A DNA stretch of 34,533 nucleotides from Paracoccaceae bacterium (lineage in GTDB: Bacteria; Pseudomonadota; Alphaproteobacteria; Rhodobacterales; Rhodobacteraceae): assembly GCA_027000645.1 (NCBI GenBank), contig JALTNO010000309.1, forward strand, positions 1 to 34,533, read 5' to 3'. Each line of letters starts with the position of its first letter. The stretch's first letter is position 1. Under the pieces are notes generated by a model, which was not told where the DNA came from, did no database searches, and worked only from the letters and a program-made list of their open reading frames with translations. This document shows positions 18,264-21,880 of this stretch, in pieces. Both the position numbers and the translations under genes were made by a program.

Positions 18264-21200
18264 TCAGTTCGAAACGTAACCCGCGACCACCTGCAACAGC
18301 TTGTAGGCCACGGCCGCGTCGTTTTCGACCACGGCCAGGAATTCCTCTTCCCCGATGCGCAGGCAGGTCAGGTCGGTTTCCGCGATCATGCTCAGCGCGC
18401 GAGGTTCCTTGCGGATCAGGCCCAACTCGCCCACCAGCGCGCCGGGACCGACCTTGGCGATCAGCTCGTCTTCGCGGTCTTCATGGGGCAGGTAGAGGCC
18501 GGCCTCGCCCTCGATCACCACGTAGGCACCGTCCGTGGGGTCATCATCCTTGTGGAACACGGCCTCGCCCGCCCTGGCGTGATACCAGCGCGCGCCGAAA
18601 CCGAGAAGCCGCAGATGGCGGCGGTCAAGGCCGGAAAACAGCGGAACCTGCTCGAGCGCCCGCACCTTGCGCGCAAGGTCGGCACTGGCGGCGCTTTCCT
18701 CCTCCTCGCGGATATGGACTTCTTCGCTCACGATCCGGCCCTGTTCGACCTCCACGAACATGTCGAAAGCGTCCGAATGTTCGAATGACGGTTCAAGATA
18801 GATCAGCGTGGCTTCCGGCAGCAAGTCGCGCAGGTTGCGGAACACGGCAATCTTCGTCTCCATGTCGAAACTCGCCAGCGCCCGGTCGAGGATCAGGATG
18901 TCGGGCCGCTTGATCGTGGCCCGGCAGAACGCCAGCGGCTCGGCGAAGGTGGCCGGGAGGTTCTGCCCTCCGACGGCGATCGGCAGGTCGTAGATCAGTT
19001 CCACCACAAGATCCCGCGCGCCGCTTTCCGTCAGCACGTCCGCCACCAGCCTGCGCACCTCGTCCGCCTTGGCCCCGGCGATTTCCGACACCTTTCCGAA
19101 CAACGCGTTTTCCAGGACCGTCAGCCCGGGCGAGAACCGGCCCTGGTCCAGAGGCTCGAACAGGCCGCCCAGGGTGGCGAGGAGCTCGCGTCCGTGAGTT
19201 CGGCGAAGCTCCAGAATGCGCGCCTTCATGTCATCGGTGAAGGCCGGGCCGATCTGTTCGGCCGAGATGCGGATCGGCACCGTCAGCAGGTAGGAGAGTT
19301 CTTCGTCGGACAGGGCCGAGGCGCCGGCATCGCGGGTCCGCTCCACCAGGTCGACGACCTTCTCATATGTGGCCGGCTCGACCCCGAGCCGCCGGAACAG
19401 CGGGTGATCGGTGCCATCGCGCCCGAAGATCTGGCGCAGCATGTCGATCACGTCGCGGGTCATGCGCACCAGCCCTTCATCCAGCCCCAGCCGGTGAAGC
19501 TGGGCCAGGAACGCGGTCTGGCGGGCCAGAACCTCTTGCGTGATCTCGACGCGGGGTATGGCGAACAGGAGGTTCTCGGCCACCGGCAGGGCCGGGTTGT
19601 AAAGTTCCGGGTCGAAGAAATAGGTGTACTGGGCAAGCCCCGCATCCTTCACCGCCTTCCGGACCCTGGGGCGCAACTCGACCAGGCGCGCGGCAAGTTC
19701 GGGATGCGCGGCGGGATCGAATTCCTGCTCCAGCCCGCGGCGCAACAGCGCCGCGCCCGGCCCCAGCCCCGAGATGAGCCGCAACCACCAGCGGCGGAGT
19801 TCTTCCTCGGACTCGAACCCGGCCAGTGTCGGGTCGGTCCAGTCCGCGTCGAAGGGATCGGGGCTGTTGCCGGTGCGCAGCGCCTCGGCCAGCGCGCCGG
19901 GATCGGCGGGTTCCCCCACCGGGCGGTATCGGACCGGCATCAGCACGTTGTCCCCGAACGTGCCCTGAAACAGCGCCGGCTTCGAGGTCGCATGGCCAAT
20001 GCGCAAGGCGATGACCTTCTGGTGGAGATCGCGCAGGCGCAGCCCGCCCATGGTCACTTCGCCCCGAGATGGCAGAACTTCGCGCGTCAGCAGGGCCGCA
20101 AGCGCCCGGCGGTCCTCTTCATCCGGAACGGCGATCGCGCAGGTCTTGCCGCCCGGGAAGGTGACGGCGAGATCTTCAAGCACGACATTGCCGTCGGTGT
20201 CGCGCACGTTGACATGATCCAGCACGATGTCGCCGGTCAGGCGCGGGATCTCCTCGGGATCGCCCTCGAACAGGGATTCGTCGATCATGCCCGGCGGCGC
20301 GAAGCGTTCGATGATGATGTCCCACCGAACCGCCATGTCCTGGGTCTGGTTGTAGTAGGTCAGCAACTCCTTCCATGGCGAGCTCAGGTCCTTGTAGGCC
20401 GCCAGCGCCGCCACCAGAGCGCCCAGCGACACCTCCCCCCGCAAGACGAGATAGCCGCCCACCGCGTAGAAGAAGAACGGCGTGAGCTGGGTGATGAAGT
20501 TGTTGAGAAACTTCATGAAAAATTTCTTCTGGTAGATCTGGAACCGGATCTCGAACAGCCGCCCCAGCCGCCGGGTGATCAGCGCCCGGCGATACCGCCA
20601 GCCGCCGCTGGTGCGCAGGGCGCTTGCCCCCGTTGCGGTTTCGCCGATCTCGCCGGCAAGCGCGCGCACCTCGCGGATGCGCCTCTTGTTGAGTTGGTTG
20701 ATCTGGCGCTGCATCCGCGGAATCAGCCACGCCTGCAACGGGATCAGCGCCACCGCCGCCAGCCCGAACCACAGGCTTTGCGTGAACAGGAAGAACAGGA
20801 TCGTGGCCATCTGCCCCGCCTGCAGGACCGGCTGGCTGATCGCATCCCCCATCAGGCCGCCCATGGGTTCGCTTTCGGCGGTGATCATGGAGACCAGCTC
20901 GCCCTGGCTGACCCGCTCGAAATAGGGTTGCGGGAACCGCAGGACCCGGGAGATCAGCTGATAGCGGAAACGGCGCAGCATCCGTTCGCTGAGGACGCCC
21001 TTCATGGTGTTGATGCGCATTTTCAGCAGGCCGTGTGCCAGAACCGCCGCCAGAAAGGCCAGGCACAGGATCCACAGGAACACGATCTGATCGACGCGGT
21101 AGCCCAGCACATCGATGGTCGCGCTGAACGAACCGATGGCATCGTTGATGATGCGCTTGGGCAGTTCCAGCGTGAGGTAGAGCAGCGGAAAGAGCGCCAC

Positions 21201-21365
21201 CGTCACCAGCAGGAGGATCAGCTGATCACGTTTCGAGTACTTCCAGATGAATCGGAAAAGCGAAGGTTCGATTTCTTCAACTCCGAAATGAGACGCAAGG
21301 GATGGTCCCGCGCATTCGCGCGCCTGTGGCCCGCCGAGGGGCGGGCGATCGTCCAAGGGTAACAA
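18264..21365 (-). CDS. ABC exporter-like protein with degenerate (pseudo-ATPase) nucleotide-binding domain and C-terminal cyclic-nucleotide-binding domain, 1033 aa
   Basis: N-terminal type-IV exporter TMD (FRYQLISRVLRFPQPYFERVSQGELVSMITAESEPMGGLMGD..); NBD-like region with AIAVPDEEDRRA, VGGQNLP, DILILDRALASFD; C-term FSGLDRRHLRLLGFG..AGEAVFHKDDDPTDGAYVVIEGEAGLY..GALVGELGLIRKEPRALSMIAETD (cNMP-binding). Confidence 0.88.
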   Translation of the reverse strand: MLPLDDRPPLGGPQARECAGPSLASHFGVEEIEPSLFRFIWKYSKRDQLILLLVTVALFPLLYLTLELPKRIINDAIGSFSATIDVLGYRVDQIVFLWILCLAFLAAVLAHGLLKMRINTMKGVLSERMLRRFRYQLISRVLRFPQPYFERVSQGELVSMITAESEPMGGLMGDAISQPVLQAGQMATILFFLFTQSLWFGLAAVALIPLQAWLIPRMQRQINQLNKRRIREVRALAGEIGETATGASALRTSGGWRYRRALITRRLGRLFEIRFQIYQKKFFMKFLNNFITQLTPFFFYAVGGYLVLRGEVSLGALVAALAAYKDLSSPWKELLTYYNQTQDMAVRWDIIIERFAPPGMIDESLFEGDPEEIPRLTGDIVLDHVNVRDTDGNVVLEDLAVTFPGGKTCAIAVPDEEDRRALAALLTREVLPSRGEVTMGGLRLRDLHQKVIALRIGHATSKPALFQGTFGDNVLMPVRYRPVGEPADPGALAEALRTGNSPDPFDADWTDPTLAGFESEEELRRWWLRLISGLGPGAALLRRGLEQEFDPAAHPELAARLVELRPRVRKAVKDAGLAQYTYFFDPELYNPALPVAENLLFAIPRVEITQEVLARQTAFLAQLHRLGLDEGLVRMTRDVIDMLRQIFGRDGTDHPLFRRLGVEPATYEKVVDLVERTRDAGASALSDEELSYLLTVPIRISAEQIGPAFTDDMKARILELRRTHGRELLATLGGLFEPLDQGRFSPGLTVLENALFGKVSEIAGAKADEVRRLVADVLTESGARDLVVELIYDLPIAVGGQNLPATFAEPLAFCRATIKRPDILILDRALASFDMETKIAVFRNLRDLLPEATLIYLEPSFEHSDAFDMFVEVEQGRIVSEEVHIREEEESAASADLARKVRALEQVPLFSGLDRRHLRLLGFGARWYHARAGEAVFHKDDDPTDGAYVVIEGEAGLYLPHEDREDELIAKVGPGALVGELGLIRKEPRALSMIAETDLTCLRIGEEEFLAVVENDAAVAYKLLQVVAGYVSN

Positions 21366-21487
21366 TCCGGCAACGGGCCGTGCAAACGGATTCGTTCCCC
21401 GACGCGACGGAACATCGGTCAGGGCATTTGCAGGTGCCGGCGATAGGCCCTAAGCTGGCCGCGACGAACCGGAGGGGAGGGATCGGG

Positions 21488-21880
21488 TTGTCGGATATCG
21501 TCGGGATGGTCCTGATTCTGTTCAGCCTCGTGCAGATCAAGCACATGTTTGCAGACTACTTCCTGCAGACGAGGCGGATGTTGTCGGGGCGGGGCGAGTA
21601 TCTGCACCTGGGCCGGGCGCAACATGCCGGCGTTCATGCTGTCGGCTCGGCGATCGTGTTCGGGCTGATCGGCGCGCCTCCCGGTTTCATCGCCGTCCTC
21701 GTGGTTCTGGAATGGATCGCGCATTTCCATATCGACTGGATCAAGGCACGTTACTGCGATTCGCGGGACTTCGATCCCTTTCAGGCTGGCTTCTGGCGGG
21801 CGGCGGGGCTGGATCAGGCCCTGCACCAGTTCACCTATATCGGCATGGTCTGGGCATGGGTCCGCTATGCGGCCATGTAG
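21488..21880 (+). CDS. DUF3307-like small membrane protein
   Basis: MSDIVGMVLILFSLVQIKHMFADYFLQTRRML..HAGVHAVGSAIVFGLIG..EWIAHFHIDWIKARY; start codon uncertain (TTG 21488 or ATG 21506). Confidence 0.7.
   Translation: MSDIVGMVLILFSLVQIKHMFADYFLQTRRMLSGRGEYLHLGRAQHAGVHAVGSAIVFGLIGAPPGFIAVLVVLEWIAHFHIDWIKARYCDSRDFDPFQAGFWRAAGLDQALHQFTYIGMVWAWVRYAAM

Follow-up and report, generated by a model that had tools for sequence, protein, structure and literature searches.

We have identified a family of alphaproteobacterial MsbA/ABCB-type half-transporters in which the nucleotide-binding domain (NBD) very probably carries three tandem Q-loop-to-signature subdomains and eroded ATPase residues, with a cyclic-nucleotide-binding (CNB) domain, its cassette intact, fused to the protein in the clade studied here. 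The gene lies in the window, by which we mean the whole 34,533-nucleotide stretch of Paracoccaceae DNA that was analysed, and its product is, on the likeliest reading, a half-transporter of the MsbA-like type that has become a pseudo-ATPase under putative cyclic-nucleotide control. The NBD is usually seen as among the most rigidly conserved of motor domains. In this family, three coupling-side motifs stay while the ATP site decays repeatedly, and the family occurs in about one third of the sampled alphaproteobacterial genomes. No published description of it was found in the open-licence literature.

The features of the locus are listed below. Residue numbers follow the 1033-codon open reading frame (ORF), and numbers in the structure model equal the ORF number minus 27.

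18264 to 21272, minus strand: pseudo-ABC transporter gene, 1002 aa from an inferred ATC start (homology, Shine-Dalgarno sequence, codon census)
21281 to 21284, minus strand: Shine-Dalgarno-like GGAG upstream of the ATC (GG at -11/-10 in 100%/96% of 81 loci)
21270 to 21272, minus strand: ATC taken to be the start codon (79 of 82 orthologous loci have ATA or ATC here)
20301 to 21260, minus strand: type IV (ABCB/MsbA-like) transmembrane domain (TMD), residues ~36-355 (Pfam PF00664, 7.8e-15; PDB relatives; model helices)
19935 to 20234, minus strand: N-terminal part of the NBD, residues 378-477 (alignment to ABC exporters and a canonical NBD profile)
20106 to 20132, minus strand: degenerate Walker A AVPDEEDRR, residues 412-420, with Lys to Arg and Ser/Thr to Arg (alignment and census)
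19644 to 20000, minus strand: module 1, residues 456-574, with Q-loop strand, DN helix, helical subdomain and first pseudo-signature helix (HHalign, model)
19173 to 19640, minus strand: module 2, residues 576-731, with strand, YNPALPVAENLLFA, helical subdomain and second pseudo-signature helix (HHalign, model, VIA-align)
18906 to 19172, minus strand: module 3, residues 732-820, with SPGLTVLENALFGK, helical subdomain and the signature helix preceding Walker B (HHalign)
19143 to 19922, minus strand: insert relative to an ordinary NBD, residues ~482-741 (model, structural alignment, NBD profile match)
18945 to 18959, minus strand: degenerate signature LPATF where LSGGQ is expected, residues 803-807 (alignment and census)
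18882 to 18896, minus strand: Walker B LILDR, residues 824-828, with the Asp kept and the catalytic Glu replaced by Arg (alignment and census)
18267 to 18653, minus strand: C-terminal CNB domain, residues ~905-1033, with the cassette GELGLIRKEPRA intact (Pfam PF00027, 7.3e-18)
21302 to 21880, plus strand: divergent DUF3307 gene, a conserved neighbour in Rhodobacteraceae, by position alone

The ORF as listed spans 18264 to 21365 on the minus strand, and we judge it to be real. Pfam recognises its two ends, ABC_membrane (PF00664) with 55.7 bits against a cut-off of 28 and cNMP_binding (PF00027) with 64.8 bits against 27.5; between these domains there was no Pfam match, and ABC_tran (PF00005) fails to match. 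MsbA-, PCAT- and TmrAB-like exporters in NCBIfam and the PDB match the protein in two pieces, one comprising the TMD and the first part of the NBD (to residue ~476) and the other beginning at residue ~766-792, so that the stretch between them corresponds to the insert described in the earlier note. The NCBIfam model for the MsbA lipid A flippase (TIGR02203) gives 122.6 bits, below its cut-off of 602. A 722-aa antisense ORF (19194-21362, plus strand) was disregarded: the homology sits in the minus-strand frame, and the antisense frame probably reflects high GC content.

The window gene appears to start at ATC, as part of a predicted, conserved pattern of AUA/AUC initiation. The window offers no ATG, GTG or TTG codon close to the point where homology begins. 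At the corresponding position in 82 Rhodobacteraceae loci (L006-L087), which are related rather than independent, ATA occurs in 62, ATC in 17 and ATG in 3; ATA accounts for 3.4% of the Ile codons that these genes use. Of these loci, 49 lack a canonical start anywhere from the preceding in-frame stop to the codon in question, and the first canonical start beyond it usually lies 17-22 codons further into the gene. The intervening codons are conserved as protein, with 65% of differences at third positions, and the start annotated for TM1040_RS03855 of Ruegeria sp. TM1040 falls 51 bases within the region of the match. Distant relatives have ATG at the corresponding codon in 46 of 66 rows, and the paralogues L098 and L115 retain an ATG start. 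Starts other than AUG, GUG and UUG are known, such as the AUU of infC, and initiation at AUA/AUC that is conserved within a lineage would be a rare natural example of a non-canonical start.

The distance between the Walker A-like and signature-like positions, put at about 390 residues in the earlier note, measures 384 (Lys position 419 to signature 803), compared with 89-108 (median 97) in 32 ordinary NBDs of the same genome. Both motifs are degenerate here. The three repeated segments described in that span were found where they had been reported, to within a base or so: LFQGTFGDNV in module 1 (residues 465-474; 19944-19973), NPALPVAENLLFAIP in module 2 (residues 590-604; 19554-19598) and SPGLTVLENALFGKV in module 3 (residues 745-759; 19089-19133). 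Of 67 family members, 65 keep the Asn of this ENxLFG-type motif in module 1, and all 67 keep it in modules 2 and 3.

For the repeat test, a family alignment of 68 rows was cut into three non-overlapping module profiles, which were compared by HHalign. Modules 2 and 3 matched with a score of 83.2 over 61 columns, modules 1 and 3 with 38.3 over 80 columns, from the Q-loop through the signature helix, and modules 1 and 2 with 43.0 over 50 columns, with a second, ordered match (24.8) between the two pseudo-signature helices. These scores are far above the column-shuffled controls (best of 60 shuffles per module pair, 15.6-17.5) and reversed profiles (17.7 or less), and the internal repeat is thus beyond chance. 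Against a canonical NBD profile built from the same genome, module 1 matched around the Q-loop (97%) and module 3 from there through to the end (99.8%); module 2 independently gave a weak match at the same Q-loop positions (65%). The insert adds two further copies of the Q-loop-to-signature helical subdomain, for a total of three, ahead of the real signature.

The predicted structure has the same layout. The AlphaFold model has a mean pLDDT of 84.6, with ~80-96 in the insert, which is confidently folded; neither a coiled coil nor a disordered linker, the outcomes named as evidence against a duplication, is seen. The order of strand, EN helix, helical bundle and long helix is present three times, at residues 456-574, 581-731 and 736-817, and Walker B comes after the third copy. 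The ABC NBD core is complete in the model: the ComA NBD (3vx4_A) aligns over 231 of 239 residues (rmsd 2.8, Z 24.9; model residues 347-871). Module 2 predicted alone has a pLDDT of 92.3 and a pTM of 0.87. Foldseek with this module gave no match below E 0.9, and VIA-align returned mostly ABC exporters that are individually weak (Z 2.1-2.9). The compact ones among its alignments cover residues 1113-1190 and 473-544 of mouse P-gp and 1164-1235 of ABCB11, which we take to be the Q-loop-to-signature-helix segment. The Z values are unconvincing by themselves, and their register agrees with the sequence evidence. Profile scores, the AlphaFold model and the module 2 register together support the proposal that the insert came from partial NBD duplication.

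The architecture is widespread. A search with a profile of the insert only found the family in 131 of the 385 genomes sampled across Alphaproteobacteria, and all 31 positives among 398 genomes of a phylum-wide (Pseudomonadota) sample were alphaproteobacterial. The domain architecture suggested as new does combine insertion with duplication, but it is common to an alphaproteobacterial family and not unique to the window gene. All three modules are spanned by every one of the 67 aligned members, and no one- or two-module member was found among full-length insert-profile matches, a query that favours the full insert. Many Rhodobacteraceae carry a close relative of full length. Outside Rhodobacterales, most members are ~880-950 aa long and have plainer motifs (TxxDNLFYG, YNxNATxAENLLFGTP and YNAAAxxQDNILFGK). 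Some Rhodobacteraceae genomes, such as G178 (L165, L166, L167) and G355 (L171, L172), contain two or three divergent copies each, and such copies occupy different neighbourhoods within one genome. One copy from a metagenome-assembled genome (L063) has its frame broken in two by an in-frame stop or sequencing error. There are also TMD-only relatives of 351-433 aa without an NBD (L218:7773-9077, L219:7773-9038, L093:1399-2454, L094:1297-2535); in Phaeobacter and Sulfitobacter, two of them belong to copper-resistance clusters carried by conjugative plasmids.

The ATPase motifs (Walker A GxxGxGK[ST], LSGGQ, catalytic Glu, H-loop His) are absent from the window protein, which has AVPDEEDRR, LPATF, LILDR and no His at these places. 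The ATPase residues are lost except the Walker B Asp throughout its clade, where 62 of 84 loci have APSEEDRR as Walker A and the others a comparably degenerate form, and where the signature is LPAVF or similar. Across the family, the Walker A Lys is kept in 28 of 67 members, Lys together with Ser/Thr in 4 of 67, the catalytic Glu in 26 of 67 and the H-loop His in 18 members. An unusual Walker A form, GxxGSGKE/D, recurs in 22 of the 67 (e.g. L117, L113, L130), with the Lys kept and Glu/Asp at the place of the Mg2+-coordinating Ser/Thr. All five scored residues are kept in a single member (L114) out of 64 distinct ones, and on an unrooted tree of the TMD the loss or gain of the Lys takes 8 changes. 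Triplication thus seems compatible with an intact ATPase set; decay probably came after it, repeatedly, if the direction suggested by the unrooted tree is right. Since some relatives keep all or most ATPase residues, loss of hydrolysis would be a trait of clades rather than of the architecture. A homodimer of the window protein is, we expect with considerable confidence, unable to hydrolyse ATP, and the degenerate NBD might bind ATP or another nucleotide. Strong purifying selection acts on every domain in the clade, with dN/dS values, at a dS near saturation, of 0.038 for the TMD, 0.086 and 0.054 for the two NBD parts, 0.096 for the insert and 0.047 for the CNB domain.

In type I (ABCB-like) exporters, a degenerate site normally has a canonical counterpart (PMC7756269). 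Because known degenerate exporters keep one canonical site, the main rival reading is that the window protein is the degenerate half of a heterodimer, as in TM287/288 and TmrAB, with a canonical half encoded elsewhere in the genome providing the ATP site. The genome could supply such a partner, as it holds 93 PF00005 matches, some in exporter-length ORFs. We nevertheless consider this reading unlikely: no canonical half-transporter is found among the conserved neighbours in Rhodobacteraceae; the loss takes in Walker A, signature, catalytic Glu and H-loop at once, unlike in known degenerate sites; and L114, with the same triplication, has all five residues, which suggests a self-sufficient ancestor.

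The CNB cassette keeps its Glu and Arg in 84 of 84 loci, with the strict form in 76 and small variations in 8; one of these 8, L088, has Asp in place of the Glu. The CNB domain is fused in the window's clade and is usually the next gene elsewhere in the family, and the fusion requires one change on the TMD tree. Separate CNB proteins beside distant members carry GEIAILCDVPRT or similar in 14 of 14 cases. Cyclic-nucleotide control of the transporter through this putative regulatory domain stands at roughly even odds.

Gene order differs between the branches of the family. Distant members share a conserved cluster in which divergent GT28-like and GT4 glycosyltransferase genes, two of them GT4, and a His phosphatase-family gene are followed by the ABC and CNB genes and often, after CNB, by a Methyltransf_17 gene (L162-L164, L168, L173, L179, L180, L212, L215). 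Annotated rhizobial records likewise have glycosyltransferases, the ABC gene and the CNB gene in consecutive order. In Rhodobacteraceae a divergent DUF3307 membrane-protein gene takes the place of this neighbourhood, adjoining the family gene in ~80 loci (L006-L085), and the window gene has no glycosyltransferases alongside. That the family as a whole moves glycolipid or glycan-type cargo is a tenable proposal that we rate slightly short of even. The S. meliloti 1021 homologue lies at pSymB 841,666-844,993 and may be SMb20813. The latter has been termed an msbA homologue (PMC10945364). Identity with MsbA2 (SMb21191), an MsbA-like exporter whose gene stands beside glycosyltransferases on pSymB (PMC3687685), was rejected, as the msbA2 operon lies at ~938 kb, ~97 kb away.

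A different reading is that the protein is not a transporter but a membrane sensor or scaffold, its TMD and pseudo-NBD relaying a cyclic-nucleotide signal to other proteins. A dead ATPase next to an intact CNB cassette would suit such a role, as would the TMD-only relatives in copper-resistance clusters, but the TMD is the most constrained part of the protein (dN/dS 0.038) and glycosyltransferase clusters of the kind usual for export surround the distant members; we regard a sensor or scaffold as improbable. Much less probable still is an insert of unrelated origin with EN motifs that are convergent or due to chance: it could draw on the absence of a strong Foldseek match for module 2 alone, and is opposed by profile scores of 38-83, where the null reached at most 17.5, by a motif Asn that is near-invariant at three sites and by the weak ABC-exporter matches of module 2, which fall on the Q-loop-to-signature segment of either NBD. 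An unrelated or disordered insert was therefore rejected, given the pLDDT of ~80-96, the fold of module 2 and the HHalign matches. A decaying pseudogene or assembly artefact, to which the lost catalytic residues might point, can be dismissed: almost every one of 80 public loci has a full-length ORF, as do further genomes, dN/dS is below 0.1, and there is no sign of relaxed selection (dN/dS near 1) or of frameshifts in the majority of strains.

For the preferred reading, an MsbA-like half-transporter turned pseudo-ATPase, we propose the following mechanism. The protein, assumed to act as an inner-membrane homodimer, would use its NBDs, no longer hydrolysing ATP, as an enlarged coupling platform, the extra helical subdomains adding contacts to the coupling helices or to the partner NBD. 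Binding of a cyclic nucleotide to the CNB domain, not an ATP cycle, would then set the conformational switching of the TMD. The ancestral role may have been the flipping or export of a glycolipid or glycan precursor made by the adjacent glycosyltransferases. That the extra modules serve as added coupling or dimer surfaces is plausible, if tentative. An outright exchange of ATP for cyclic nucleotide, in which dead sites and a tripled helical subdomain as platform would leave a CNB-gated, ATP-independent permease or lipid scramblase, is a more speculative idea that we hold doubtful. Retention of the coupling-side motifs alongside decay of the ATP site separates the mechanical-coupling role of the NBD from its catalytic role, and the family is a natural test of whether the ABC fold can function without ATP hydrolysis. 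The gene clusters also point to an undescribed cyclic-nucleotide-linked envelope function beside glycosyltransferases in rhizobia and their relatives.

The window protein shares with MsbA, TmrAB, PCAT1 and TM287/288 the TMD fold, the order of TMD and NBD and an NBD core that is complete from end to end. It differs from MsbA-type exporters in its two extra modules, in its lost Walker A, signature, catalytic Glu and H-loop and in the added CNB domain. TM287/288, TmrAB, TAP and CFTR have likewise lost catalytic residues in an NBD whose fold is kept, but they retain a canonical site in the partner (PMC7756269), whereas a homodimer of the window protein would have every site dead. The cassette GE(L/I)...PR(A/T) of Crp and the PKA regulatory subunit (PF00027) is intact in the window CNB as well; unlike in the Crp/PKA type, the domain is fused to or encoded beside an ABC pseudo-transporter, and the window protein has no DNA-binding domain. 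S. meliloti MsbA2 resembles the family in being an MsbA-like exporter encoded beside glycosyltransferases, at a different pSymB locus.
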